Assembly: GCA_009786925.1 (NCBI GenBank)
Contig: WRGY01000118.1
Span: forward strand, 1 to 37,239
Direction of reading: 5' to 3'
DNA: 37,239 bases
Source of the DNA: Defluviitaleaceae bacterium
GTDB lineage: Bacteria > Bacillota > Clostridia > Lachnospirales > WQUN01
This document shows positions 1,594 through 33,339 of the stretch, piece by piece (within the stretch, counting starts at the first letter, position 1; each line of letters opens with the position of its first letter). The notes under the pieces were generated by a model. The model made no database searches. It was not told the DNA's origin and saw nothing but the letters and a program-made list of their open reading frames with translations. The position numbers and the translations under genes were made by a program.

Positions 1594-1875
1594 TTATCTG
1601 GGATTAGTTTTACAGTATTCCGCTGCTTCGTTACTTATTTCTTCAACGCTCATGCCCTCAAATAAATCACGTTGCCATGTTGCATTAGCCTTTTCAAATA
1701 GCTCCTCAGCAGTCAAATCTGCGTAAAGGACGCGTTGCCATTCTGTATAATCAAACGGCTCACGAATAATAAGAGTGATAAATCGTTCCGCATCCACTAA
1801 ACCAAACCACTCACTCAATTTTCGCATTCCTTCTTTTCTTAGCACGGTATCAGGTATTGTTTTTTCAGCTAACAT
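1594..1875 (-). CDS. Putative antitoxin or partner of the PIN-domain protein
   Basis: This 93-aa protein overlaps the end of the PIN gene by 11 bases and has its own strong ribosome binding site (AAGGAGG). It is acidic, with segments such as RKEGMRKLSEWFGLVDAERF and REPFDYTEWQ. The tight overlap with a VapC-like gene argues that it is the cognate antitoxin or accessory partner. The order is unusual: the presumed toxin comes first. I do not recognise a DNA-binding fold, so repression of the operon is uncertain. The stop codon lies within a few bases of the end repeat at 1563-1591, so the gene forms the extreme end of an element. Confidence 0.6.
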   Translation of the reverse strand: MLAEKTIPDTVLRKEGMRKLSEWFGLVDAERFITLIIREPFDYTEWQRVLYADLTAEELFEKANATWQRDLFEGMSVEEISNEAAEYCKTNPR

Positions 1876-2302
1876 TAAAATGCCTCCTTACAAATTCCAT
1901 CGGATTTATTATAGTAATGCCCTGTACGGTTTTATTTAAAACTTTTTTATCTGTGGTTATAAAATAATCTGATTTTCCATCAAGCGCACAAGCGATATGC
2001 ATAGCATCTTTTGTTCTGATTCCAAGTTCTTCGATTGTTTTCGTTTGTCTTAAAATCTGCGAAGTTGGTGCAACAATTGTTTTAGCTACATTTTTCCATA
2101 ATGAAATTTGTTCTCGACGGTCATCGTATGGATTGTCGCTATTTTCATGCGTCAGCATAAATGACCAGACAAGGTTTAAGTTACCCTGTACCGCTTCTGA
2201 TTGGATGAGTAACTTTGCTTGCGTTTCCAACTGCACAACAGGATGAAGCTGGTTATCAAATGGACGATTGAAGCAACAGTTGTCTAAGTATACCGTAGCC
2301 AT
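1865..2302 (-). CDS. PIN-domain protein, VapC-like putative toxin
   Basis: The 145-aa protein begins ATVYLDNCCFNRPFD, with the first PIN acidic residue (Asp7) at the end of strand 1. It ends with KDAMHIACALDGKSDYFITTDKKVL, which supplies the later PIN acidic residues (DAMH, then the TTDKK strand and turn). PIN-domain enzymes of this type are Mg-dependent ribonucleases, and most act as toxins paired with a small antitoxin. The overlapping gene at 1594-1875 is the obvious partner. The C-terminus is cleanly coupled to it (11-base overlap). Target RNA cannot be inferred from sequence. Confidence 0.8.
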   Translation of the reverse strand: MATVYLDNCCFNRPFDNQLHPVVQLETQAKLLIQSEAVQGNLNLVWSFMLTHENSDNPYDDRREQISLWKNVAKTIVAPTSQILRQTKTIEELGIRTKDAMHIACALDGKSDYFITTDKKVLNKTVQGITIINPMEFVRRHFNVS

Positions 2303-2613
2303 ATGTCACCGCTTTCTGTTGATTGGAATATCAATTTAAATATAGTTTGGATTTCTTCAACTGTCATATGTTTTCTTTCTGTTGGTGATTTTAGCGGCTT
2401 GCCGCATAGCCGTCACCGCAACGCGGTGGCGTTCATGGGGTCTGGGGCAACGCCACAGCAAGCAAACGTGCGAGGGTTACTTAAACGCACCTTGCTTGCG
2501 ACATGATTGTACGCTAGGCTCTGTGATGTTATCACATTATACATTTGCGTAATCAACCAAGGACTTAGCAACATACTCTTTTTCTGATTTGCTACATAGA
2601 GGGGGTAACTTTC
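2303..2613. other. Gene-free stretch with three consecutive GC-rich hairpins
   Basis: I see no convincing gene between the PIN gene and the HNH-like gene. The stretch 2414-2499 is unusually structured for this AT-rich area. CACCGC pairs with GCGGTG (2414-2428), GGCGTT with AACGCC (2428-2454), and a long arm starting GCAAGCAA at 2458 pairs imperfectly with one ending TTGCTTGC at 2499. The short plus-strand frame here has no ribosome binding site and reads through the hairpins, so I do not call it a gene. It may be a structured RNA, an element end or a relic. Confidence 0.45.
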
Positions 2614-3400
2614 TTAAAAATTCAGGGTCATATTTTGCATTTTCATGCATTGGGATTTCAACAATATCCCTCTATTGTTTCCATAAAAGTTAGAGTGTTT
2701 CCACTCTCCATTTAATTTTAGGGGTTTTTCTTTAATCCAATCCATAACGCGACCAAATTTATCCAATTTATCCTCTGGCATAATGGTCAAAGCCATTTTT
2801 ACATAAGTCTTAAAAGCAGCGATACCATCAAATTTCTGCTTAATGATGTTGAACCCGCTACGGACTAAATGATTTACTGGCTTTCCACAGTTGCGGCAAG
2901 GAAAAAAAGCATGTTCTATCAATGGATGCTCACAGTATTCACATATATACGTTCGTTTGATTCCGCCACATTCATTTAAATAAAAATCAACAATGAGCTT
3001 TGTACGTTCCACGCATTTGGTAGCTCTTGTTATTTTTTTTCTTTGTTTCGTATTTTACTTCTACATTGTGTTTCATATACAAGCCATCAGAGTTGAAATC
3101 TACAAGTCCATTTTTTCCTTTAATTCCTAGAATTGTGCGAATCGGGTTTAAGTTTTTTGATAGATGGTCTTCACACATTTTATTAAATATACCGCCACAC
3201 TTGTTACATTCATACACCGTAAATAAATACCTATTACCGAAAAACTCTGGAATGGCATGATTACCAGAACCATGTTTAGGTATCTCTGCATCTTTTCCAC
3301 AAAATCTACAGAGCAGACATCGGTTATCCTTCGGGTATGCTGGTAGATATTCTGCCGAATTATAATTTATGGCATTGTAGCCGATTAGTTTTTTATACAT
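2614..3400 (-). pseudogene. HNH-like zinc-finger protein gene, broken by a frameshift at an A8 run
   Basis: Two overlapping frames look like one gene. The first (2987-3400, 137 aa) has CRFCGKDAEIP, then NHAIPEFFGN and ECNKCGG, a pattern like HNH-type nucleases with paired CxxC zinc knuckles. The second (2614-3012) has another double zinc ribbon (CEYCEHP and CRNCGKP). Moving one base at the eight-A run on the minus strand (T8 at 3033-3040) joins KYETKKK directly to ITRATKCVERTKLIVDF with no stop. The product would be about 260 aa. The shift may be a real mutation, a sequencing error in a homopolymer, or slippage that still yields the full protein. The gene lies between the intact tRNA and the PIN pair. 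The HNH assignment is moderate; the split is clear. Confidence 0.6.
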
Positions 3401-3461: not shown

Positions 3462-3535
<74 letters not shown>

Positions 3536-4773: not shown

Positions 4774-5940
4774 ATGAAAAAATTAGTCGCTGTATTTTTG
4801 GTGCTTATTATTTGCGCCACTCCTGTTCTTGCGTCGGACTTTGTCCCGGTGCGTTCTACATTGGAGGAGTTGGGATGGGAAGTAAATTGGCATGATGGCC
4901 GAGAACGCATGGTATATTTTACCACGCCTGCGGGCGAGGGGTTGCATATCTTTGTAGACGAGCATAACAGCATTATAGAAAACGACAGGGTGTATGTCCA
5001 TCCTGCACTCATGATGATGATTATTAATGTCGGTACAGAGCGACCTTTTGTGGAGCCACAGGAGAATATCCATGGCAAGCTCACTCGTGTAACCTATGGC
5101 GAAAATGTCGCGTATATATTTGGCACGATGAATGGGGCGGAGCCTCATTGGTTCCCACTGCACCCCACGGTAGAGGAATCAAAACGCCGCGCAGACATAT
5201 TTGCATTTGAGTTTGACCTTGAAGAGATAGAAGATATTTTTGCATATGCGCGGATGATGGCATATATAGAATATATGTCAATACTGCCTGACGGCCTTAC
5301 TCTTGCGGATATTTTGGCAGATGATGTATATTCTAATTTTGTCACAAACATGGAGTCATGGTCATTTTGGGTGACATACGATTCGGTCAATATGCTTACA
5401 CCCATCGCGATTTTGTTAGGGTTAGACCATGCGGCGTTCCTGACACTTGGTATTGAGTTGTATTACATGGTTGATAATTATATATTGAATTTCGCAATGA
5501 TAAATGACAAGCCAACGATGGGGCTTAACACCATGTACAGCGAGATTGACCTGTTGTTTAATGTTCCGCTGGAAATCCAAGCATACGCCTTAAAGGACTT
5601 TTTATCATTCGAAAATCATTTGGATAACATAAGAGAGTCTAATCCAACGGAAATGTATGCCGCCCAAGACCTCGAAGGGCTACGCGCAGTGGAAAAATCC
5701 ATCTGCGAAGGTACATCGGCCAACCCTTTTACAATGATGTTTAACTACAATCTCCGAGATTCGCGCCGGCGGATTTTTGCGGATAGGATTGCTGATTTTC
5801 TTTTGGAAACAGATGAGCCTTCCACGATGTTTGCCGCCGTCAGGATACAACATATAATCGACTGCGGATGTGGCAAAAACCTTTTGTATTTATTGGAAGA
5901 AATGGGCTTCGAAATCGAGCCGCTTTGGCAAGACGCATAA
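4774..5940 (+). CDS. Secreted TraB/GumN-like protein with a copper-amine-oxidase-type N-domain
   Basis: The 388-aa protein has a signal peptide (residues 1-20, cut after ATPVLA). A short stalk domain follows (FVPVRSTLEELGWEVNW), like the copper-amine-oxidase N-terminal repeat of Firmicutes surface proteins. From residue 103 comes the TraB/GumN (TIKI-like) domain: VAYIFGTMNGAEPHWFPL, then RRADIFAFEFD. Members normally carry GTxH in the first motif; here the position is Asn120. The second motif is also altered (VRIQH instead of GxxH, with His kept). TIKI relatives are metalloproteases that use these histidines, so catalysis may be lost or changed. The recombinase gene follows after two bases, in the same transcription unit. 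Confidence 0.72.
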   Translation: MKKLVAVFLVLIICATPVLASDFVPVRSTLEELGWEVNWHDGRERMVYFTTPAGEGLHIFVDEHNSIIENDRVYVHPALMMMIINVGTERPFVEPQENIHGKLTRVTYGENVAYIFGTMNGAEPHWFPLHPTVEESKRRADIFAFEFDLEEIEDIFAYARMMAYIEYMSILPDGLTLADILADDVYSNFVTNMESWSFWVTYDSVNMLTPIAILLGLDHAAFLTLGIELYYMVDNYILNFAMINDKPTMGLNTMYSEIDLLFNVPLEIQAYALKDFLSFENHLDNIRESNPTEMYAAQDLEGLRAVEKSICEGTSANPFTMMFNYNLRDSRRRIFADRIADFLLETDEPSTMFAAVRIQHIIDCGCGKNLLYLLEEMGFEIEPLWQDA

Positions 5941-5942
5941 CC

Positions 5943-6986
5943 ATGGAAACATACCACGATAAAAAAAACGCTGACAACACGCTAAAACTGCGGGAGATGC
6001 TAAAAACCCTCCCGCAGTTTGTGGCGGGTTATTTCCGCTCTATGAGTGACCAAACAGCTCCACTCACACGGATTGCATATGCATATGACTTGGGTATATT
6101 CTTTAATTTTCTTGCCGTAGATGTTTTGGTCGGAACCGCTCAAGACAGCATAAACACTGAACAAATGGCAACTATCACATCCGACCATCTGGAAGAATTT
6201 ATGGAATATCTTACATACTATATCCCTGCCCGTGACCCTGACACGGCTTTGCAAAATGCGGCAAAAGGCAAATCACGCAAACTCGCCGCCGTGCGTGGGT
6301 TGTTTAAGTATCTATATAAGAAGAAACTCATACCCGCAAACCCTGCGGAGCTTATCGGATTCCCAAAAATCACGGAAAAAGTAATCACCACCCTAGAACC
6401 TAACGAAATAGCGCGTCTCATAGATGAAGCAGAAAGCGGCGAAAACCTCACCGACCGACAGCAGATTTTTCATGAACGTACAAAACTGCGCGATGTTGCC
6501 ATCATCACCCTACTCCTGGGCACGGGCATCCGCGTCTCCGAATGCGTCGGACTCGACATACGCGACATTGATTTCGAAGCAAATGGCTTCCGTGTAACGC
6601 GCAAAGGTGGCGACGAGATGGTATTGTACTTTGGCAGAGAGGTAGAAGAAGCACTCGGCAACTATCTCGACCAACGCGAAGAGCTGGATGCCATCGAAGG
6701 CCACGAGCAGGCACTTTTTCTCTCTTTGCAAAACCGTCGCATAACTACACGACAAGTCCAAAAGATGGTAAAAAAATATGCCGCCATCATCACACCACTT
6801 AAAAAAATCTCACCACATAAACTACGCAGTACCTTTGGCACACAGCTATACACAGAAACGGGAGACATCTATCTCGTGGCTAATGTCCTCGGCCATGCCG
6901 ATGTAAACACCACCCGCAAACACTATGCGAAAATGGATGATAGCTACCGTCGCCGCGCCGCAAATGCAGTAAAATTGCGCGAGTAG
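5943..6986 (+). CDS. Tyrosine recombinase, XerC/XerD-like
   Basis: The 347-aa protein has an N-terminal SAM-like core-binding domain (about 20-140) and a C-terminal catalytic domain. All active-site residues are visible: Arg197 (GTGIRVSE), Lys221 (RVTRKGG), His292 and Arg295 (SPHKLRSTF), His318 (LGHADVNTT) and Tyr328 (TRKHYAKM). I chose ATG 5943, two bases after the upstream stop. A longer in-frame start at 5868 would overlap that gene by 73 bases. No strong ribosome binding site is seen, so translation may be coupled. The length and N-domain fit XerC/XerD chromosome-dimer recombinases better than phage integrases. It could nevertheless be the enzyme of a nearby element. Which role applies is not settled. 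Confidence 0.88.
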   Translation: METYHDKKNADNTLKLREMLKTLPQFVAGYFRSMSDQTAPLTRIAYAYDLGIFFNFLAVDVLVGTAQDSINTEQMATITSDHLEEFMEYLTYYIPARDPDTALQNAAKGKSRKLAAVRGLFKYLYKKKLIPANPAELIGFPKITEKVITTLEPNEIARLIDEAESGENLTDRQQIFHERTKLRDVAIITLLLGTGIRVSECVGLDIRDIDFEANGFRVTRKGGDEMVLYFGREVEEALGNYLDQREELDAIEGHEQALFLSLQNRRITTRQVQKMVKKYAAIITPLKKISPHKLRSTFGTQLYTETGDIYLVANVLGHADVNTTRKHYAKMDDSYRRRAANAVKLRE

Positions 6987-7172
6987 TTTTATTTTCTCAA
7001 AAAGTGTTGCTTTTAGCTTTCATTTGCATTAATATACTATGAAAATCGCATTTTAACTCATAAACATCCTTCAATAAATGCATTATAGGGTCTTTTTCAA
7101 ATTTTTTTGCATAATATTAAAAATTGCGGCATGTACTTATTCTTATAGATTTAAAAATAGGTGGAGCGTGTT

Positions 7173-9287
7173 ATGTTTGGACATGTTGAAGCAGAACTTC
7201 GCAAAAGTTTAGGCGATGAGCTTTTCCAAATTATCACCCAGTACTATAATAATGCATTTAGCCAACTAGACAATAGTACAAGGTTGGTTTTTTTGTCGCG
7301 TAGAGGATACGAGTTATTTAAGCTACTAGAAAAAAACAAATTGATAGATGCTTTGCCTATTAATATTGGGTATGTTTCTGATAGGTATATACAAAAACTA
7401 TCTCGCAAGGAGATTGAGGATTTTTTCCGTGGATTTGAAACCTTGGTAATTTCTGATGATTCTATTGTAGAGGGGAATGTAACCGAGGATTTATTATTAC
7501 AAATAGGAAAAGACTTCTTGCCTAAAAATGTAAAACTCGCAGTTCCTATGGTATATGAGCATTTTTATGAATCGAAAATATCAAAAACTACAGGCAGAAA
7601 AGTAAAACTAATAGAGCCTGATTATTTTACACTAAAGGATATAAATCGCTTTACGTTGCGCTTTGTAGATTTGGCAAATCGTCTCGGCATGTTTTTTGCT
7701 ATGGATTTGCCAATGTACAGATGCAGATTTCCAAACACCGAGTCCATCCAAAATGTGTTGCAATCTGAATTTGAAAATTACAACTGTACGGATATGTTAC
7801 CTACATATGCCGAGGACAACGCAGATGAAAACACCGTAGCACTAGGAGACTATACAAACCTGCTTACACTTCTTCCAAAGAATGAAATTTTCAAAAAGGG
7901 CAAGTGGCTTTATGAGGGTGTGCGTTGTTATTTTCCAGAAGGTTATCCAAGAGATAATGCAAAAACGTTAGAATTAGAGTTTATCTCTTCTGCTTTGTTT
8001 TCTGCAATCAAAATTTCCGGAGCATTAAAATTTTTATATGAAATAACAAAAAAAATTGACCCCAACAGCAGTATGCATAATAGAATAAAAGAAATGTGCA
8101 ATGACTACCCTGAAAACATAAAGTTAAATGATAGAAACTTGGAAGACCTTCGGTCTGGGGCATATATTCATAGGGTCGCTGTGCTATTTTTGTCGGCAGC
8201 TGTTGGCAAAAAATGCTTTGGTAGAAAAGCGGAGAGTGAAATAAATTATATGGAGATGGCTCGCCACATTCCTCCTTCCGTTTTGGATGTATTCAAAAAA
8301 GCATATGCCGAGGACAGTTACTTACAGCTAATACAGGATTCGTTCGAGTCATCTGGATTATGCGCTGAAGAATTTACTGAAAAAGATTTAATTAGAGCAT
8401 ATAATGCAGGAACTAAAAAAATAATAAAAAAATACAAACAAGAACTGGAGCCTTACGACCTTCTTAAAAGAGAATTGGACGGTATGTTTGCCGAAATATC
8501 AGGCCTTACGCCGAAAAATGCGATTAGTGCAATAGCAGAAAGTGCGAGGCTGGTAAAGATAAAAATGAGAAGATGGGCTATACCTGTGTTTTATTGGCTA
8601 AATAAGCTCGGCAACTTAAGGCCTGATGTAGTTTTAGCATTGCTTGTGGCTACCGGTAGCTCTATTTCTTCGTTTAAAGGAATAATATCATTTAAAAACG
8701 ATTTAATAATAAAAGCAGGTAGCCCCGGTGAAGGTGTTATCGTTTCGCTGTGCAAGCAGAGCAAGCCCTTTGTAGAGGCCGCTGCTATTAATTATTTTGT
8801 AAATACAGTTGGCGATGATTACACAAAATCTATTGAAGAGATAAAAGAACCCTTAGAGCTTTATTTCAAAAAATATGTATGGGACGATAAAACGGATAAA
8901 ATCAGAAATTTGAATTTTGAGTCAAGACTGTATCAAACGGGTAACTATATTTCGGATTATTTAAAAAATGATGAGTTTGATTTGGACAACAAACCGCTGA
9001 CAGTAGCCGTTGATTACTATGAAACTAACAGGGATTACAAAGCTTCTGATGATTTTTCATGCCTTTACTCCAAGTTTTCAGAAGAGCTTCGCGCATTTAC
9101 GCCCGATACAGCATGTGACGTGATTGCAGTGATGTCCGGACTTACTCCAAGGACGGACGCGCAAGAGGCGTTTACGCAAGTTTACAATCGCGTACTATCC
9201 GATGAAAAAAAGAAAAAGCCGCTAAAATATGCTACAGAATTTTTGTCAGAGCTCAAAAAAAACACAAACTTAATAAAAGGATATTAA
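7173..9287 (+). CDS. Large unrecognised protein with a phosphoribosyltransferase-like N-terminal segment
   Basis: I chose ATG 7173 because GGTGGAG lies six bases upstream; an in-frame GTG at 7161 is less likely. The 704-aa protein has no signal peptide or clear membrane segment. Residues 37-110 carry LVFLSRRGYELFKLL, then FETLVISDDSIVEGNVTEDLL. This resembles the phosphoribosyltransferase fold (an early small loop with Arg, then hydrophobics-DD-x4-G-x-T). I recognise no family in the rest, which is Lys/Asp-rich. The gene is more AT-rich than its neighbours and ends in its own terminator. With the next gene it forms an island between a tyrosine recombinase and a DivIVA gene. A conflict or defence role is only inference. 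Confidence 0.6.
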   Translation: MFGHVEAELRKSLGDELFQIITQYYNNAFSQLDNSTRLVFLSRRGYELFKLLEKNKLIDALPINIGYVSDRYIQKLSRKEIEDFFRGFETLVISDDSIVEGNVTEDLLLQIGKDFLPKNVKLAVPMVYEHFYESKISKTTGRKVKLIEPDYFTLKDINRFTLRFVDLANRLGMFFAMDLPMYRCRFPNTESIQNVLQSEFENYNCTDMLPTYAEDNADENTVALGDYTNLLTLLPKNEIFKKGKWLYEGVRCYFPEGYPRDNAKTLELEFISSALFSAIKISGALKFLYEITKKIDPNSSMHNRIKEMCNDYPENIKLNDRNLEDLRSGAYIHRVAVLFLSAAVGKKCFGRKAESEINYMEMARHIPPSVLDVFKKAYAEDSYLQLIQDSFESSGLCAEEFTEKDLIRAYNAGTKKIIKKYKQELEPYDLLKRELDGMFAEISGLTPKNAISAIAESARLVKIKMRRWAIPVFYWLNKLGNLRPDVVLALLVATGSSISSFKGIISFKNDLIIKAGSPGEGVIVSLCKQSKPFVEAAAINYFVNTVGDDYTKSIEEIKEPLELYFKKYVWDDKTDKIRNLNFESRLYQTGNYISDYLKNDEFDLDNKPLTVAVDYYETNRDYKASDDFSCLYSKFSEELRAFTPDTACDVIAVMSGLTPRTDAQEAFTQVYNRVLSDEKKKKPLKYATEFLSELKKNTNLIKGY

Positions 9288-9290
9288 ATA

Positions 9291-9320
9291 TGCGGTACTT
9301 GCAAACATACAAGTACCGCA
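9291..9320 (+). terminator. Terminator between the two unrecognised genes
   Basis: An 11-bp perfect stem (TGCGGTACTTG with CAAGTACCGCA), 8-nt loop and a T5 run at 9323-9327. It starts six bases after the stop of the first gene. Partial readthrough or a separate promoter must supply the second gene. Confidence 0.85.
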
Positions 9321-9366
9321 AGTTTTTGATTGTCAAAGCATACATAATACCTTAGCGGAAAGGTTG

Positions 9367-10530
9367 ATGGATATTTCTACTACACAGCGAGAAGTGCATG
9401 ACCTGATAAAAAGAACCCTTAATAATGAGTCGATGGAGTTTGATATTGGTATCTTTAATGCGGATAGCGAGAATGACAGCCCCACACATGTATGTATCAT
9501 AAATGCCATGCGTACAGAAAGAGAACATCCGGATACAGAAATGATTATGAGATTTATCAGTGCTTACCAGTCCGAAAACTACGAAGGCAACCCTAATGGT
9601 GAGGTTTTTTCGGAGATGTTTGTTTCAAATGTAGAAATTTGCAATGCAGAAGGTTTGCCCCAGAAGATTGCAACACTTCCGCTACCTCTAGCACGCATAC
9701 TTGCTTGCGCGCTAAATGCAGACGTAAAATTAAAGACTCTTTTATCCGAGAAAAATTTTTGCAATATTGGAAAGGATGGTTCATATAGAGATATTACCAA
9801 TGAGGACAGGCTATATATTAACGAAGTGTATTATGAACTGTATGCCACCATGGCGCGATACATCCCATTATTTGGCATTACAATGAATGCAAGAATGGGA
9901 GGAGCAGTTATCACAGATGCTTTTTATCCTAACATTGATAAGATTAACATTGCTGTTGATAAAAATAAAAAAATTGATGCACTTGCTAACCATTTGCGTA
10001 GTTATATCGACACATTTTTAGACGACTACTTGAACGAAGATGAACGATATAACAAAGAACTTCGCGACATAAAAAGAAAAGTAATTGAAAAATCTATAGC
10101 CTCCTTTCAGCTTCAGCTAAACGAGTTTGCACCCGGAAATTGGAAGGTAACAATCAATCCCGAGGGCAAAAACAGCAAAGAAAGCAAAAAATTAAGAGAC
10201 ATACTATTGCTTGCACTAAAAAATTTGATTATATCAAATGCATTTGGAAAGTCTGATACCCACCCGAGATATGGGGATTGCCCAAATCACTCCCTGTTGA
10301 AATCACATTACAAAAAAATAAAGAAAATTTTGAAAGATGAAGAAAGCATAGACCTTATATTAATGCATAAAAATGACAGTGGCATGGCCGGTAAAAGCAG
10401 GTATACAGAGGTTGAAATAGAAAATCGTAGAAGGGGAGCAAATCTCAATGGATGGATTTATTTTCACTCACTTAGAGATAACGGCGAAAATTGCAGTTTT
10501 GTAAATTGGAAAACTATACTTACAGGATGA
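9367..10530 (+). CDS. Unrecognised 387-aa protein, second gene of the AT-rich pair
   Basis: ATG 9367 follows GGAAAGG closely (three bases). The protein is soluble, with no signal peptide, membrane segment or zinc motif. Segments that could anchor a search are YIPLFGITMNARMGGAVITD (about 160-180), a charged helical stretch (RSYIDTFLDDYLNEDERYNK) and a C-terminal block (DLILMHKNDSGMAGKSRYTE). I do not recognise a family. It shares strand, base composition and codon style with the preceding gene and ends in a strong terminator. The two are likely to work together despite the terminator between them. The stop codon is inside the stem of the next terminator. Confidence 0.6.
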   Translation: MDISTTQREVHDLIKRTLNNESMEFDIGIFNADSENDSPTHVCIINAMRTEREHPDTEMIMRFISAYQSENYEGNPNGEVFSEMFVSNVEICNAEGLPQKIATLPLPLARILACALNADVKLKTLLSEKNFCNIGKDGSYRDITNEDRLYINEVYYELYATMARYIPLFGITMNARMGGAVITDAFYPNIDKINIAVDKNKKIDALANHLRSYIDTFLDDYLNEDERYNKELRDIKRKVIEKSIASFQLQLNEFAPGNWKVTINPEGKNSKESKKLRDILLLALKNLIISNAFGKSDTHPRYGDCPNHSLLKSHYKKIKKILKDEESIDLILMHKNDSGMAGKSRYTEVEIENRRRGANLNGWIYFHSLRDNGENCSFVNWKTILTG

Positions 10531-10551
10531 CACATTGCTTGCATGTGTCAT
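10527..10551 (+). terminator. Terminator closing the AT-rich gene pair
   Basis: ATGACACAT and ATGTGTCAT form a perfect 9-bp stem with a 7-nt loop, followed by TTTCTTT. The TGA stop codon of the preceding gene lies in the first arm. Confidence 0.82.
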
Positions 10552-10634
10552 TTCTTTATGCTAAAATTGTTGACAAAATCTAGGAAAATGTCAAACACGG
10601 CGAGCGAGGCTCGTCCGCGAGAGGAGCCTATACA

Positions 10635-11177
10635 TTGGAACAATTTACCTACGTAAAGCGCGGGTACGACCCGGAAGAGGTAGACAGATATATAGCTACA
10701 CTGGAGCAGGTAATAAAGAGCTACAAGGAGAAGGACAATGCAATAAAAAATGCGATTATCAGTGCGCAGGTGGCGGCAGACAATATGATAAAAAATGCCC
10801 GCAACCAAGCTGAAGAATATAAGGTGCAAATCGCAAAAGAGCTGGACAAAGTCTCGACAGAAATCGAACGCCAACGCATACGCATACAAGCATTCCAAGA
10901 TGTGTACAGCGGGCTGGTGCGCAAATATCTTTCTAACCTTGAGGACAATGATATGTCCGACATCTTCACTCGTCTCGACGATGTAGACAAACTCATAACC
11001 CGCCTAAAAGAGGCGGACATTGCGATGCCTGCCGTTACACCGGAGCCGATGGATTCTCCCGAGGAGGACTTAACAGAGGAGTCCCCCTCACTAAGCTTCG
11101 GACCGGAAAACAGCCCCAGCCTAAACAAGCCCGCCGCACGAGTAAATGACGAAGGTAACTACGTTCCCAACTCTTAG
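10635..11177 (+). CDS. DivIVA-domain protein
   Basis: The 180-aa protein starts at TTG 10635 behind GAGAGGAG. It opens FTYVKRGYDPEEVDRYIATL, the membrane-binding N-terminus of DivIVA/GpsB proteins. A coiled coil follows to about residue 105 (EQVIKSYKEKD, then NARNQAEEYKVQIAKELDKV). The tail, from about 130, is acidic and Pro/Ser-rich and looks disordered. DivIVA proteins sense membrane curvature and position division or envelope factors. The ribosome binding site lies inside a possible small hairpin (GGCTC with GAGCC), which might limit translation. The sensor kinase gene follows after 11 bases. Confidence 0.85.
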   Translation: MEQFTYVKRGYDPEEVDRYIATLEQVIKSYKEKDNAIKNAIISAQVAADNMIKNARNQAEEYKVQIAKELDKVSTEIERQRIRIQAFQDVYSGLVRKYLSNLEDNDMSDIFTRLDDVDKLITRLKEADIAMPAVTPEPMDSPEEDLTEESPSLSFGPENSPSLNKPAARVNDEGNYVPNS

Positions 11178-20471: not shown

Positions 20472-20681
20472 CTAAATGAAATTTATTGTTATAGTCTTGT
20501 CAAAAACATCCAACTCGACATTTTCTATTTCTCTCACCTTTTCTCCGATATAACCTTGGTTATCGAGACGAAGCGGTCGATTTTTAGTTACATCTAGTAT
20601 CTTGAATAGCCCATGTCGTTTTACTCCATCTCCTCGGTTTAGGTGTTTTTTCCCGCATAACCTTACATTAATGTTACATAT
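20472..20681 (-). pseudogene. Open frame without a start codon, probable gene remnant
   Basis: A 69-codon frame is open here and ends LDVFDKTITINFI. It contains protein-like phrases (HGLFKILDVTKN, LRLDNQGYIGEKV) but has no ATG and no TTG or GTG until very late. It starts within the last bases of the preceding gene. A one-base change near ATGGAGTAA at about 20619-20627 would supply a start directly before VKRHGLFKIL. I read it as a decayed small gene; it could instead be a small protein with a non-standard start. Confidence 0.35.
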
Positions 20682-21255
20682 TCATATTTATCCAGCCTTC
20701 CTTTTCTATGTATTTTGCAAATTTATCTGCATCCATTGTCAGAATTTCTTTAAAGTACAGCCCTTTATACCGCTCAAGATTAAAATCTATTTGCGTCATA
20801 TCTGCTATATCGAATATGCCCTCTATTGCTTCATCAAGTGCGCTTTCTATTTGTTCGCCATAAACAACGATGAATGTAATATTGTTTCTTGCAAACTCCC
20901 TGTCTTTCTGTAAAATATCCATAAGTGCAAGTAAACTTTCCAATGCCTTTTGTCTAAGCGCATTAGATTTACACTCTCTTTTTGAAATTTTAAACTCTAT
21001 CAAATTAATATCTTCATCTGTTGAAAAATATAAACAATCTGCCGATTTTGGTAAGTCAGTACTCCTTATACCCCTTTGCATAGGCAACGAAAAAGCTCCT
21101 GCATTTAATAAACCCCGATAATATTTTTCTTTCACCTTATCAAAGTTTACAGCAAGTATTTCAGAAATGGCAGCAAAACGACCATCGCCTGTTTTAGATA
21201 TTTCTTTAAGCGTGTCTAAGCCTTCTAAAAATTGACTTACCTTTTCAATATTCAT
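20674..21255 (-). CDS. PD-(D/E)XK-like protein paired with an AAA ATPase
   Basis: The 193-aa protein starts at ATG 21255 behind GAGGAG, inside the end of the ATPase gene (11-base overlap). Residues 73-89 (SADCLYFSTDEDINLIEFK) give an Asp, a strand and E-F-K. This matches the D...(E)xK core of PD-(D/E)XK nucleases, and the following helix has Arg/Gln residues (NALRQKALESLL). The fold call is tentative. Paired ATPase and nuclease genes are a recurring layout in antiphage modules, which is why I flag it. No methylase or toxin-antitoxin partner is adjacent. Confidence 0.55.
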   Translation of the reverse strand: MNIEKVSQFLEGLDTLKEISKTGDGRFAAISEILAVNFDKVKEKYYRGLLNAGAFSLPMQRGIRSTDLPKSADCLYFSTDEDINLIEFKISKRECKSNALRQKALESLLALMDILQKDREFARNNITFIVVYGEQIESALDEAIEGIFDIADMTQIDFNLERYKGLYFKEILTMDADKFAKYIEKEGWINMNM

Positions 21256-22507
21256 TAGCATACTCCTCGTTTTTTAGCAGCTGCAAAGGATACGCCATTG
21301 TCTTATATATTTCGTCTATCTTATCAGTGACATCATTAATAGTCGCTGCATTAACATCACATTGGTAGTATTTGCATTTTTTTTCTATGCAATGTTTTAT
21401 AGCATACACCTCTACAGCCCTTAAAAAATACAAACTGTGGGTATTAATCAACATAACGACATTGAAGTCCTTTTGTATAAGAACAATTAACTCCGCAAGT
21501 GCAATTTGCCATTCCGGGTGCAAATGTATTTCCGGCTCATCTAAAATAAGAATATCACCGGATTTTAGACAATTGTTCATGATTAATGTCTTAATGATTA
21601 TAAATGTTTTTAGACCTGTAGACACGTTTCCTATGTTATACGAGGCATCCCCTTCGCTGTATACATATGACCCTCTTTTTGCAGATTTTAGACTTCCCGA
21701 GCAAACCCTATTAATAATTTCGAAAGCACGACTAAGCTTTTTTTCCTTTAAAATATCCCCCAGTGGATTTGTCTCGGACTCCATAGAATCATCAATACAG
21801 CGCAGTAAATGGGACTGGCGGTTTGAACTTTGTCTATGAATAGGGAGAAAGCCATTTCTCAAAACCCTTGGCCTCAGCATTCGTTTATCCAAAATAAATG
21901 GATTATCAATGTAAAATGCCTCTTTATTAAACGATGCAAACTCCGGATTATTAAATATTTCTCCCTCTTTTATTACCAATTCAATTGTAATATTGTCATT
22001 TGATAGCGCGATTTTAGACGAATTATCAGGAGAATGCATGTTCTCAAGTTGCCCATTAAACTCATCTCGCAACTTGTTTTCAATAAAACGTTTCAAAACC
22101 ATATTGTCGGGAACAGACATTATCTCATGCATTTCATTTGCTAGGTCATTTATATCTTTTTCATCTAAAGTTTTCAATAAATGGCTCTTTGATACCCACT
22201 CTGTTAAATACTCAACACTCCCGGCTAGTTCTTCATCTTCAAACAGCTCGTTAAGTAAGGGTGTAATTATATACGAAGGAATACTCATACTTTCATTGTT
22301 ACAAAAGGAGTATAGCAACCGGCTTAACTCTCTTTGCTTATCCAATTCGACCTGTGAGTCGTCGTAACACAATCCATTAATAACAGAAAATAAAACCTTG
22401 CCGACTGTACTTTTACCAGAATTATTTTCACCTGCGATAACAGTTATCCCGCCCAACTTTACATCTGCGACTGCCAGCTTACCGATATTTCTAATATTCA
22501 ATGTCAT
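21245..22507 (-). CDS. AAA/ABC-type ATPase (OLD-like, SMC-related) of a two-gene module
   Basis: I chose ATG 22507 (AAAGGA upstream); a start seven codons earlier is possible. The 420-aa protein opens MTLNIRNIGKLAVADVKLGG. Walker A is GENNSGKST (26-34). Near the C-terminus are the signature-like STGLKTF and Walker B DILILDEPEIHLHP, followed by the His switch INTHS. This is the layout of AAA_15/AAA_21 ATPases seen in OLD-family and other defence proteins. No TOPRIM domain follows; the nuclease candidate is the separate downstream gene. The two genes overlap and surely work together. They interrupt the chromosomal topoisomerase gene region, which suggests acquisition. Confidence 0.8.
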   Translation of the reverse strand: MTLNIRNIGKLAVADVKLGGITVIAGENNSGKSTVGKVLFSVINGLCYDDSQVELDKQRELSRLLYSFCNNESMSIPSYIITPLLNELFEDEELAGSVEYLTEWVSKSHLLKTLDEKDINDLANEMHEIMSVPDNMVLKRFIENKLRDEFNGQLENMHSPDNSSKIALSNDNITIELVIKEGEIFNNPEFASFNKEAFYIDNPFILDKRMLRPRVLRNGFLPIHRQSSNRQSHLLRCIDDSMESETNPLGDILKEKKLSRAFEIINRVCSGSLKSAKRGSYVYSEGDASYNIGNVSTGLKTFIIIKTLIMNNCLKSGDILILDEPEIHLHPEWQIALAELIVLIQKDFNVVMLINTHSLYFLRAVEVYAIKHCIEKKCKYYQCDVNAATINDVTDKIDEIYKTMAYPLQLLKNEEYANEY

Positions 22508-22552
22508 ATCCAGTATCCTTTCTTCCATGCGATGTTTAAACCTACTATAATT

Positions 22553-24538
22553 CTACCCCGTCTCCGACAAATCTATATACAGATGTCCATACTCTTCGAT
22601 AAAGTCTTTGCGGCCTTTTAGGTTATCACCTAATAGTATTTCAAACATCTCCTGCGTTTTTGCGGCATCGGTAGGGATGACCTGTACAAGGCGGCGTGTG
22701 GCGGGATTCATTGTTGTCTGCCACATCATTTCGGGTTCGTTTTCGCCCAGACCCTTTGAACGTTGGATATGGGCTTTTGTGCCTTTTTTATCGGCGTTGG
22801 TGAGTATGTCTGATTTTTCTCGCTCGGTGTAGGCAAAGTATGTGTTTTTGCCTACTGTGATTTCGTATAGAGGCGACTCGGCAATAAACACCTTGCCTTG
22901 CTCGATTAGTGTAGGCGTGAGGCGATACAGCATGGTGAGGATTAGTGTGCGGATATGGTAGCCGTCGTAGTCGGCATCTGTACATATGATAATCCGATTC
23001 CAGTTTAAGCGGTTGATGTCAAAGTCAGAGAGGTCTTTAGCCCGAGACTTGTCACCACGTTTTATTTCTACGCCACAACCTAGGACACGCAATAAGTCGG
23101 TGATGATTTCGTTTTGCAAAATACGATTGTATTCAGCCTTTAGGCAGTTAAAAATTTTGCCGCGTACAGGCATGATTGCTTGGAACTCGGCATCGCGCCC
23201 AAGCTTACATGAACCCAGAGCGGAGTCGCCCTCTACAATGTACAACTCACGACGCTTATTATCCTTTGTGCGGCAGTTGACAAATTTTTCTACGCGATTG
23301 TTTAAATCTATTTGACCCGTGAGCTTTTTTTTGAGAGCGACACGGGTTTTTTCTACGGATTCTCGACTGCGTTTGTTTGCCAATATTTGTGCGCAAAGTC
23401 GGTCTGCGTCGGCTTTGTTTTCGATAAAATAAACCTCTAGCTGTTTTTTTAAAAACTCTGTCATAGCTTCTTGTATAAATTTATTTGTGATGGCCTTTTT
23501 TGTCTGGTTTTCGTAAGAAGTCACAGTCGAAAATGAACTCGTAATCAAAATAAGGCTCTCTTCTATATCCGGGAAGCTAATCTTTTTTTCGTCTTTTTTG
23601 TAGTGATTACCCGACTTTAAATAAGCATCGATTGCCGAAACAAATGCCGTGCGTACTGCCTTATCAGGTGCGCCGCCATATACCAGATGGCTGGAGTTGT
23701 GATAATATTCCAACACGCTGACATCGTTTGAAAAACAAAAGGTGATGTCAAACTTTAGTTTATAATCCTGTTGGTCCTCGCGGTCACGCCCCTGTGTTTC
23801 GCAGGTGAGCAGATATGGGTCGGTTAGTGCTGTCTCTCCGGCGAGTTCTCGGATATAGTTGTTTATTCCGTTTTCGTATCGAAATGTGAAGGTCTCGCCG
23901 CCTTCTTCGTCCTTCAAAATAAATGTCAATCCATCGTTTACGATGGCCTGCCGTTTAAGCATATCCTGATACCATTCCAACGGAACAGCAATGTCCGTAA
24001 ATACATCACTGTCGGGTCGCCAGTTTACTTTAGTCCCTGTCTGTTTTCCGCCGAACGGCTCTTTTCGCATGTCTCCCGCGATTTCGCCTTTTTCAAAATG
24101 GAGCTTGTACTTCCATCCCTCACGCACAATCTCCGCATCCATATACTCCGAAGAATACTGCGTAGCACAAAGCCCAAGCCCATTAAGCCCTAAGCTAAAT
24201 GCATAGTTAGCGTCATCGTCGTTATTTGCATATTTGCCGCCTGCGTACAGCTCACAAAACACCAGCTCCCAGTTATATCTCTGCTCGGCGGTGTTAAAAT
24301 CTACAGGCACACCACGCCCATAGTCCTTGACGGTAACAGAAAAATCCGCATGTCGTGTAATCTCTATCCGTTTGCCATAGCCTTCTCGTGCTTCGTCTAT
24401 AGAATTGGAAATGATTTCAAAAATCGCGTGCCTACAGCCCTCAATCCCATCCGAGCCAAAAATAACTGCGGGTCTCTTACGTACCCTATCCGCCCCTTTT
24501 AGAGCGGTTATACTCTCGTTACCATATTCTTTTGCCAC
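22553..24538 (-). CDS. parE: Topoisomerase IV subunit B-type (ParE/GyrB family)
   Basis: The 661-aa protein has the GHKL ATPase domain (EIISNSIDEAREG, the VKDYGRGVPV Asp, LGLNGLGLCATQ) and the TOPRIM domain (YIVEGDSALGS, then DADYDGYHIRTLILT). The C-terminal signature GLGENEPEMMWQTTMNP follows. It differs clearly from the gyrB at 27621-29531 ([24 protein letters not shown]). The two are paralogues, and this one is the partner of the A-type gene at 16007-18214. Type II topoisomerase subunits are usually adjacent; here six genes, including the ATPase pair, lie between them. Confidence 0.9.
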   Translation of the reverse strand: MAKEYGNESITALKGADRVRKRPAVIFGSDGIEGCRHAIFEIISNSIDEAREGYGKRIEITRHADFSVTVKDYGRGVPVDFNTAEQRYNWELVFCELYAGGKYANNDDDANYAFSLGLNGLGLCATQYSSEYMDAEIVREGWKYKLHFEKGEIAGDMRKEPFGGKQTGTKVNWRPDSDVFTDIAVPLEWYQDMLKRQAIVNDGLTFILKDEEGGETFTFRYENGINNYIRELAGETALTDPYLLTCETQGRDREDQQDYKLKFDITFCFSNDVSVLEYYHNSSHLVYGGAPDKAVRTAFVSAIDAYLKSGNHYKKDEKKISFPDIEESLILITSSFSTVTSYENQTKKAITNKFIQEAMTEFLKKQLEVYFIENKADADRLCAQILANKRSRESVEKTRVALKKKLTGQIDLNNRVEKFVNCRTKDNKRRELYIVEGDSALGSCKLGRDAEFQAIMPVRGKIFNCLKAEYNRILQNEIITDLLRVLGCGVEIKRGDKSRAKDLSDFDINRLNWNRIIICTDADYDGYHIRTLILTMLYRLTPTLIEQGKVFIAESPLYEITVGKNTYFAYTEREKSDILTNADKKGTKAHIQRSKGLGENEPEMMWQTTMNPATRRLVQVIPTDAAKTQEMFEILLGDNLKGRKDFIEEYGHLYIDLSETG

Positions 24539-27620: not shown

Positions 27621-29531
27621 TTACACATCCAGGTTGCGAACCGTACTTGCAAATTCCTGTATAAACTCGCGCCTTGGCTCTACCTTGTCACCCATCAGCT
27701 GTGTAAACAACAAGTCGGCGGCTATTGCGTCGTCAAGGGATACACGCAGGAGCATACGTTTTTCCGGGTCCATTGTGGTTTCCCATAGCTGGTCTGCGTC
27801 CATTTCGCCGAGACCTTTGTAGCGTTGGATGGGTTTTATGCCTTCGCGCCCAATGTCATTTAAGATATTTCTTAGCTCATCGTCACTAAATGCATAATAT
27901 TGGTTTTTGCCTTTTTCCACTTTGTAAAGTGGCGGTTGTGCGATATACACAAAACCGTCGTCGATTAGGTCAGGCATAAAACGATACATAAATGTAAGCA
28001 ATAATGTACGGATATGCGAGCCGTCCACATCCGCGTCAGTCATAATTACAATTTTGTGATAGCGTAGTTTTTCTATGTCAAAATCTTCGTGGATGCCTGT
28101 ACCAAATGCTGTAATCATCGCACGGATTTCCTTGTTTTCCAGTATTTTGTCCAAGCGTGCTTTTTCTACATTCATTATTTTTCCTCGGAGAGGGAGGATT
28201 GCCTGTGTACGGGGAAGTCGTGCATTTTTGGCACTGCCGCCTGCGGAGTCACCCTCTACGATAAAGATTTCGCATAATGCGGGGTCTTTTTCAGAACAAT
28301 CAGAAAGCTTACCCGGTAAACGCCCGCCTTCGAGTACGGATTTGCGCTGCACGAGTTCGCGTGCTTTTTTAGCAGCTTCGCGTGCGCGTGCGGCAAGCAG
28401 ACCTTTGTCAATGATGGCTTTGCCCACAGCAGGATGCTCTTCGAGAAAATACGCCAAATTTTCTGACAAAACGGACTCTACGGCGGTTCGGGCTTCGGAG
28501 TTATTTAGTTTTGCCTTTGTCTGGCTCTCAAATTGCGGTTCTTCTACTTTAATACTTATAACGGATGCGATACCCTCACGCACATCATCTGTGGATAGAT
28601 TTTTTTCGTTATCCTTCAAAAGCTTAAATTTACGTGCATAGTCATTTACGGTTTTTGTCAAACCTGCACGGAAACCCGTGACATGTGTACCACCGTCTGC
28701 TGTGTTGATATTATTTACAAAAGCGTAGGTGTTTTCTATGAAGCCGTCATTATGTTGCAATGCTATTTCTACATGTACGTTTTCGTATCTGGCCTCGCAA
28801 TAGAATATTTCTTCTACCAGTGGTGTTTTGTTCTTGTTTATAAATGCAACAAACTCTTTTATACCACCGTCGTATTTATATGAGCGATAGCGATGTGGGT
28901 CGCGTCTTTCGTCTACCAAGTCAATTTTCAGACGTTTTGTTAGGAAGGCGGTCTCTTGCAGTCTTTGTTTTAATGTTTCGAAATTATATTCCAGTTCTTC
29001 AAAAATCTCGGGGTCGGGCTTAAAATGTACGAGTGTACCTGTTTCGGAAGTATCGCCGATGATGGTGAGGTCTGTTTCTTTAGGCCCGCGAGAAAATCTT
29101 TGCTCATGGATTTTTTCGCCATCATATACCCGCACAATCAGCCACTCTGACAACGCATTTACTGCCGAAGCACCTACTCCGTGTAATCCTCCTGATACCT
29201 TGTATCCGCCCGAGCCAAATTTGCCACCCGCATGTAATACCGTAAAAATAACCTCAACGGCAGGCAGTCCTGTCTGTGCTTGTATGCCTACAGGTATGCC
29301 GCGCCCATTATCTCTTACAGAAATCGAATTGTCGGGATGTATTGTCACAATAATCTCGTCACAAGCGTCCATCAACGCCTCATCCACGGCATTGTCTACG
29401 ATTTCATATACGAGGTGATGCAGTCCCTTTGCGGCTGTCGAGCCGATGTACATACCCGGTCGTTTTCTGACTGCTTCCAAACCTTCCAGTACCTGTATAT
29501 TGTCTGCTGAATATTCTTGTAAATTAGACAT
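27621..29531 (-). CDS. gyrB: DNA gyrase subunit B
   Basis: The 636-aa protein has the ATPase domain ([36 protein letters not shown]) and the TOPRIM/C-terminal core ([47 protein letters not shown]). Length is standard for Gram-positive GyrB. It lies directly after recF with an eight-base overlap, the classic dnaA-dnaN-recF-gyrB order at the origin. gyrA does not follow within this window, which is unusual; DUF2161 follows instead. Confidence 0.97.
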
Positions 29532-31892: not shown

Positions 31893-33209
31893 TTATTCGT
31901 CTTTTATTCTTAACTCCAGCCTCTCGACTATGTTGCGGATTTTTTCGTCTTGTTCTATTTCTGCTGTGATTTTGTTGCAGGAGTGTATAACAGTCGTATG
32001 GTCACGGCCACCAAAAAATTGACCTACCGCAGGGAGTGGAGTGTCGAGGATTTTTCGGATAAGGTACATAGCTATTTGGCGCGGCAATACTATATTTTGG
32101 GTACGTTTGCGGCCGTTTAGGTCCTCTATGGTTACATTAAAGTGATTGCATATTGTTTGCCTAATCGACTCCATGGTGATGGGTGGTTTTTCTTTGCCTA
32201 CAAGTTGGTCTTTTAAGGCTTGGCGTGCGAGTTCCATGGTAATTGTGGCATTTGTCAGGCGAGAGTATGCAATGATTTTGTTAAATGCACCTTCCATGTC
32301 GCGTATGTTTGAGATTATATTTTTTACAATAAATTCTTTGATTTCTGAAGGGAAGTCTATTTTTTCCAGATTAATTTTTTTGTCGAGTATGGCCGTACGG
32401 GTTTCGTAGTCCGGGATGGATACGTCGGCGAGCAGACCGGAGGCAAAGCGTGAAGTAAGGCGCGGCTCAAGTGTAGTAAGCTCGCTCGGTGGAATATCGG
32501 ATGTTAGTACGATTTGGCGATTTAATGATGTCATATGGTTATATGTGTGGAAAAGTTCTTCCTGTGTTTCTATTTTGCCATCGAGGAACTGCACATCGTC
32601 TATGAGCAAAACATCTACATTGCGGTATTTTTTACGGAATGCAGGTGTGGTTTTTTCTCGTATAGAGGTAATAAACTCGTCTGTAAATGTGGAGGCAGGG
32701 ACATATAACACGATAAGTTTTGGATTTTCGTCATAGATTTGGTTTCCGATAGAGTGGATTAGATGGGTTTTGCCAAGGCCAACACCTCCGTACAAAAAAA
32801 GAGGGTTGTACTCCTCGGCAGCTCCCGGAGAATCTGCTACGGCACGAGAACCTGCATATGCCAACTCATTACATTTGCCTGATACAAATGTATCGAATGT
32901 ATAGCGAGGGCGTAGCCCGGTTTTGTTATAATTGCTCACTTTGCCGGAGCGTAGTGGGTCTGCTGAGTCCTCCGGTGAGATAATATGAACTTCTACATCT
33001 TGGTCTGTAAGAAAACGGATATATCTTGTGATTTCGCGGTGATGGCGTGATAGTGATGTTTTATAAAACTCTGAACGCGCCTTTAAGGTAAAAATACCGT
33101 CCTCATATGAAACGGGTACCACGGGCTTTATCATTGTTTCAAAGACAACTTCTGAAAGAGATTGTGAAAGCATTTCTTTTGCATTATTCCATATGTCGTT
33201 AATATCCAC
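31893..33209 (-). CDS. dnaA: Chromosomal replication initiator DnaA
   Basis: I chose GTG 33209 (VDINDIWNNAKEML), preceded by GGAGGG; a longer frame to 33254 lacks the family N-terminus and overlaps a DnaA box. The 438-aa protein has domain I (1-80), a short linker, the AAA+ domain with Walker A GGVGLGKTH (141-149) and Walker B LLIDDVQF, and the C-terminal box-binding domain ending in GGRDHTTVIHSCNKI. It binds the boxes on both sides of its own gene and probably autoregulates. Confidence 0.97.
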   Translation of the reverse strand: MDINDIWNNAKEMLSQSLSEVVFETMIKPVVPVSYEDGIFTLKARSEFYKTSLSRHHREITRYIRFLTDQDVEVHIISPEDSADPLRSGKVSNYNKTGLRPRYTFDTFVSGKCNELAYAGSRAVADSPGAAEEYNPLFLYGGVGLGKTHLIHSIGNQIYDENPKLIVLYVPASTFTDEFITSIREKTTPAFRKKYRNVDVLLIDDVQFLDGKIETQEELFHTYNHMTSLNRQIVLTSDIPPSELTTLEPRLTSRFASGLLADVSIPDYETRTAILDKKINLEKIDFPSEIKEFIVKNIISNIRDMEGAFNKIIAYSRLTNATITMELARQALKDQLVGKEKPPITMESIRQTICNHFNVTIEDLNGRKRTQNIVLPRQIAMYLIRKILDTPLPAVGQFFGGRDHTTVIHSCNKITAEIEQDEKIRNIVERLELRIKDE

Positions 33210-33244
33210 AGAAAAACCCTCCAAAAATAGGTGAAAAAAGAGAG

Positions 33245-33339
33245 TTATCAACATTTCTACAGAAAGTTATCCACAGAATGTTAATAAATTTGAATTCCCC
33301 CATTAATTATTTTAACAAATTTATGGTAAGTTATCAACA
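33245..33339. other. oriC core upstream of dnaA
   Basis: Boxes TTATCAACA at 33245-33253, TTATCCACA at 33267-33275 and TTATCAACA at 33331-33339 all lie on the plus strand. Between them, about 33277-33326 is strongly AT-rich (runs such as TTAATAAATTTG and AATTATTTTAAC) and is a candidate unwinding element. The rightmost box overlaps the last codons of the lipoprotein gene. Confidence 0.85.

Follow-up and report, generated by a model that had tools for sequence, protein, structure and literature searches.

Does the AT-rich gene pair that separates a recombinase gene from a divIVA-like gene in this Defluviitaleaceae genome (2.28 Mb spread over 127 contigs; completeness 90%) represent DNA acquired as a unit, and, if so, what would its two products do? 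The pair lies within the 37,239-nucleotide stretch analyzed here, which we call the window. Both frames are intact on the forward strand, as a preliminary description of this DNA had reported: gene 1 (7173-9287, +; ATG at 7173) encodes a protein of 704 aa and gene 2 (9367-10530, +; ATG at 9367) one of 387 aa. Purine-rich, RBS-like stretches lie 5′ of the ATG in both genes.

An insertion between xer and divIVA

The pair is flanked by two genes that lie outside the insert, a core gene for an XerS/XerC-like tyrosine recombinase (5868-6986, +) and a DivIVA-like gene (10635-11177, +). We delimited the insert by local alignment of the Xer-DivIVA intergenic region with that of G006, a genome of the same genus and the closest relative for comparison. 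Homology to G006 stops within the last codons of xer, at window position 6982, and restarts at 10550, just 5′ of the DivIVA leader, which places the junctions at 6982/6983 and 10549/10550 and the insert at 6983-10549. These 3,567 bp are replaced in G006 by 11 bp. Gene order is otherwise the same in the two genomes (TraB-Xer-DivIVA-kinase), with identities of 50% for TraB, 87% for Xer, 82% for DivIVA, and 78% for the kinase.

The same site could be compared more widely. We retrieved 29 Xer loci of other genomes; in six of them DivIVA was found at most 1.5 kb downstream of Xer, against a distance of 3.6 kb in the window. Four of the six are from the same genus (G003, G005, G006, and G007) and two from other genera of the same family (G015 and G024). 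Spacers that could be read directly measure 60 nt in G003, 65 nt in both G005 and G007, and 94 nt in G006. The site is therefore empty in four of the nine same-genus genomes other than the source. In three more (G002, G008, and G009), the 1.5 kb downstream of Xer holds other genes without a match to the pair; the G004 locus meets the end of its contig, and in G001 no Xer or DivIVA match was found. DivIVA itself is matched in 9 of the 10 genomes of the genus, the source included, while the pair is absent from all other genomes of the genus and family that were searched.

Given the empty site in relatives and the break and restart of the alignment with G006, it is nearly certain that the two-gene pair is an insertion gained by this lineage, and its earlier description as an acquired island is upheld. 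A pair that was ancestral and lost by the relatives, with no insertion at all, is already unlikely. Such a history could appeal to the fact that the evidence is one of presence and absence only and that no outgroup has the pair, but it needs losses leaving short, clean spacers in at least six relatives with adjacent Xer and DivIVA (four congeneric genomes and two from elsewhere in the family), and we give it very little credence. Since the junctions are defined to the base and a relative with an empty site is at hand, the gain can be assigned to one lineage and cloning should be easy.

The preliminary description had also placed the pair next to a complete tyrosine recombinase. The gene, upstream of the pair, is indeed complete (Phage_integrase, E = 5e-33) and adjacent, but it does not belong to the island: 35 of 41 genomes, the source included, have an Xer match at E ≤ 1e-50, and Xer occupies the same place without cargo in the six relatives. 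Because it is a core gene present at the same site without the cargo, Xer is ruled out as the integrase of the insert, and no integrase of the cargo's own, as expected of an integrase-bearing island, was found beside it. The insert holds a leader of its own and the two genes, which are separated by a strong hairpin, and ends in a weaker one. Neither gene matches a Pfam family of integrases, transposases, capsids, or replication proteins, and no repeats of ≥11 bp, whether direct or inverted, occur inside either junction stretch. Neither the reading frame of xer nor the leader of divIVA is disrupted by the insert, so that carrying it should be cheap for the host.

Composition and signals of the insert

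The two genes are nearly identical in GC content (36.4% in gene 1 and 36.6% in gene 2), and their composition by codon position is the same (GC1/2/3 of 43.5/32.1/33.7% and 43.2/32.6/34.1%, respectively). The contrast with the DivIVA gene drawn in the preliminary description is real, GC3 being 55.6% in divIVA, as well as 47.6% in xer and 52.5% in the histidine kinase gene. As a mark of foreign DNA, however, composition does not hold up. Genes matching gyrA, gyrB, recF, and dnaN are found in the same window, as is a likely dnaA (31893-33254), named by position only, and recF (GC3 33.6%) and dnaN (29.6%) are as AT-rich as the gene pair. We therefore dropped base composition as proof of foreign origin and count it as weak evidence for an island.

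Gene 1 is preceded by an AT-rich leader of 186 nt (6987-7172, +), which by its sequence is presumed to hold the promoter. A promoter scan returned 10 sites against a chance mean of 14.0, that is, fewer than chance, and for this reason we do not claim a promoter. The fold of the leader is nothing unusual (z = 0.11), and Rfam gave no match in 6900-10700. Three TGCATWA-type motifs in the leader (at 7023, 7077, and 7106) are possibly candidate operator sites; their number compares with a shuffle mean of 0.35, and 12 of 1,000 shuffles reach three, for a motif that was chosen post hoc.

A strong terminator had been proposed after each gene. This holds for gene 1, which is followed by an intergenic hairpin (9291-9320, +) with an 11-bp stem and then AGTTTTT, terminator- or attenuator-like in form and more stable than all 200 shuffles (z = -3.87; 0/200 equally stable). 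It does not hold for gene 2: the hairpin that closes the insert on its right (10525-10553, +) is also terminator-like, but it is weaker (z = -2.79; 5 of 200 shuffles equally stable) and has a broken T-run. Because a terminator-like hairpin lies between them, genes 1 and 2 may be separate transcription units. Two neighboring genes whose products could be balanced by a hairpin would also suit a toxin-antitoxin-like pair, in which one protein is toxic and the other neutralizing. Both proteins are, however, far larger than the usual partners of such pairs, and neither matches a toxin or antitoxin profile; we consider this explanation quite improbable.

Orphan proteins

Both proteins had been described as large and unrecognized, and the libraries returned only weak noise for them. 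No meaningful match to either was obtained in Pfam (E up to 1, and up to 10 for parts of the proteins) or among PDB sequences. PADLOC-DB yielded 0 families for either protein at E up to 10, which leaves the pair outside the known defense families of that database, and NCBIfam and PHROGs gave stray matches only. The best of these, to phrog_1921 (E = 0.0022 over 66 residues), is short and isolated and was discarded.

Searches of genomes were similarly unproductive. In samples that overlap and are not additive, only the source's own copy was matched strongly: by protein 1 among 96 relatives, 391 genomes of the class, and 398 of the phylum; by protein 2 among 41 relatives and 368 genomes of the phylum; and by both proteins jointly among 38 genomes of the family and 186 of the order. 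Most of these searches used a single sequence and would miss distant relatives. Weak matches were seen for protein 1 in five genomes (E = 7e-5 to 0.009) and for protein 2 in four others (E = 0.006 to 0.15) and once more in its own genome (E = 0.16). Nine of these ten loci were inspected, the own-genome one being omitted; the matches are short or low-scoring, several cross stops, and we counted them as chance. Word scans of GTDB contigs, whose reach is limited to close relatives, likewise returned no relative. None of the searches thus turned up a further copy of gene 1 or gene 2. Judged by sequence, both proteins are orphans within the libraries and genomes searched.

These results bear on two other explanations of the pair. 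It may be a lineage-specific accessory pair with a housekeeping or regulatory role, for instance in nucleotide metabolism or sensing, as would be consistent with genes that are intact, close together, and devoid of a toxin or nuclease signature. The lack of a homologue in any relative searched would nevertheless be unusual for housekeeping genes, and we regard such a role as conceivable but doubtful. Alternatively, a mobile element or phage, or a remnant of one, may have brought the pair as cargo that serves the element's own life rather than host defense. The genes were gained, are AT-rich, and have no relatives in hosts, and PRTases are also described in polyvalent proteins of phages and plasmids (PMC5512222). 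On the other hand, the pair has no match, at the protein or DNA level, in 50,697 phage and 72,556 plasmid records, and word scans of IMG/VR, with the same reach, returned no relative. An insert of only two genes, with none of the element families named above and with no repeats inside its junction stretches, also argues against such an origin, which we likewise regard as conceivable but doubtful.

Is protein 1 a phosphoribosyltransferase?

The first protein had been called phosphoribosyltransferase (PRTase)-like on the strength of two motifs. Both are present, SRRGYELF at residues 42-49 (7296-7319, +) and the PRPP-loop-like LVISDDSIVEGNVT at residues 91-104 (7443-7484, +), but homology statistics do not bear the assignment out. 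The two motifs, which resemble a pyrophosphate (PPi) loop and a PRPP loop, occur in the order right for a PRTase, and the PRTase reading is built on these two. By eye, we take a first strand to end in SRRG, with SRRGYELF presumably placed where the PPi loop of a PRTase would be, and to be followed by the strand YVSDR. A third strand would then end in SDDSIVEGNVT at what we assume to be the PRPP-loop position, followed by a helix, a strand, a helix, and a strand. The DD loop agrees with 9 of the 12 constrained positions of a PROSITE-type 13-residue PRPP pattern (hydrophobics, D/E-D, ..., G), the motif having been picked post hoc. Nine positions and the acidic pair arise in 2.5% of 2,000 shuffles of the composition of protein 1, and in 0.35% when DD and G are required too. 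The motif background includes IMG/VR loci that had been fetched with a pattern modeled on the motif, which makes its sole DD..G hit (L090) circular.

Profile and pattern searches added nothing in favor of a PRTase. Pfam searches with residues 1-191 and with residues 30-169 returned 0 families, although E values of up to 10 were allowed, and a match to MComp1 (E = 0.059), short and isolated, was discarded. A PRTase profile built by hand from 16 domains of fetched loci was aligned by hhalign to the right loop of protein 1 with a score of 12.3, yet 114 of 192 tiles from unrelated proteins, and 33 of 60 shuffles, score at least as high. The PRPP-loop pattern retrieved 19 stretches from IMG/VR, and none of the 18 frames viewed was PRTase-like by eye. 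A DD-hydrophobic-HG-T pattern, taken as that of a PRTase family, was set aside, as its two genome frames look by eye like metallophosphoesterases and its four IMG/VR frames are irrelevant.

Structure prediction from the single sequence was of limited help. The full-length model of protein 1 is useless (pLDDT 33.2), with the remainder of the protein mostly helical at very low confidence. A model of residues 1-185 (mean pLDDT 44.7, pTM 0.33) displays strand-helix alternation, with low-confidence strands at 37-40, 64-67, 90-92, 120-123, and 144-146 and the DD after the third strand. Foldseek and VIA-align searches with this weak model returned middling, unrelated matches, with no PRTase among the matches listed; with model confidence so low, the absence of a PRTase fold match means nothing. 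Since the profile scores no better on protein 1 than on unrelated tiles, its identity as a PRTase is a lead and not a result, neither shown nor excluded.

Comparison with known systems

Several described systems share features with the pair. A PRTase and a DprA-like protein encoded by P2-like phages form a two-gene pair tested against phages, which its authors compare with ShosTA and whose mode of action was described as unknown at the time (PMC9122126). Unlike that pair, protein 2 has no DprA match and protein 1 is recognized by no PRTase profile. PRTase proteins are also described as effectors of type III retrons, in which genes for a PRTase and a winged-helix effector occur together (PMC12548924), an arrangement that would resemble that of the putatively PRTase-like protein 1 and its partner. 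By contrast, no reverse transcriptase was found among the window genes scanned with Pfam, the region around the pair lacks an Rfam match, and PADLOC detected no sequence relationship between proteins 1 and 2 and the retron effectors. Literature listings on PRTase-CE, PRTase anti-phage defense, ShosT, and orphan two-gene systems yielded nothing closer.

PRTase-CE (PF24390) resembles protein 1 in having a PRTase domain within a large protein. Protein 1 differs from it in sequence and in the DD loop, and a search of this genome with the family found a protein encoded elsewhere, not gene 1. The first motif of protein 1 may also resemble the FLxRDGY and Y-x-SR motifs of COG5610-type HAD proteins, whereas no HAD profile matches the protein.

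Proposed function

We favor the reading that the pair is a self-contained two-gene cargo cassette in the xer-divIVA gap, with no integrase of its own, that acts in conflict with phages or plasmids or as a similar accessory module, with a probability of about 30%. A cassette is supported by the clean insertion, the empty site, the intact frames, and a hairpin 3′ of each gene, while several results count against a conflict module: neither protein has a recognized nuclease, protease, or signaling domain or a PADLOC match, no profile favors a PRTase, no second example of the pair turned up, and the hairpin between the genes may split them into two transcription units. The function is a guess: two genes gained as cargo with nothing else suit conflict modules, and they suit other accessory cargo equally. 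If the cassette does play a conflict or similar accessory role, protein 1 might bind a PRPP-like or nucleotide ligand through its N-terminal alpha/beta part, with the large helical part as the acting part. Protein 2 could then be a sensor, inhibitor, or partner of protein 1, and the intergenic hairpin may govern how much of each is made relative to the other.

A more specific proposal makes protein 1 an enzyme or sensor of strongly diverged PRTase fold, joined to a large helical effector part, that forms with protein 2 a new two-gene immune module, one moving as a bare cassette into the xer-divIVA gap without an integrase. We think this unlikely. If protein 1 did turn out to be a PRTase-fold effector, it would broaden a class of proteins for which PMC9122126 gives the mode of action as unknown. 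More generally, bare, integrase-free insertions of orphan gene pairs are the raw material in which new conflict systems were found.

Other loci in the window and genome

Elsewhere in the same genome (G000:C60:5656-6435, L054; E = 2e-21) lies a gene for a true member of the PRTase-CE family (PF24390), about 900 aa long, and this gene is followed by what is by eye an Hsp70-like gene. The family scored above its cut-off in 7 of the 245 class genomes searched.

The window holds a second AT-rich patch (20674-22528, -; GC 33-36%), in which an AAA_15/AAA_21 ATPase lies beside a 195-aa gene without a Pfam or PADLOC match. The ATPase resembles those of the PADLOC families HEC-02A, AriA, and PtuA. Because just one of the nine other genomes of the genus contains a relative of the ATPase (47% identity), the two genes appear to be an accessory, possibly defense, pair. 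Another accessory patch may be present at 1594-3400 (-), where an AT-rich run of small genes with weak HNH_5 and weak PIN matches lies beside tRNA-Ala (3462-3535). Finally, two gyrB/parE-type genes are found a few kilobases apart in the window (22553-24538 and 27621-29531, -), the former with the lower-scoring GyrB, Toprim, and HATPase matches of the two.
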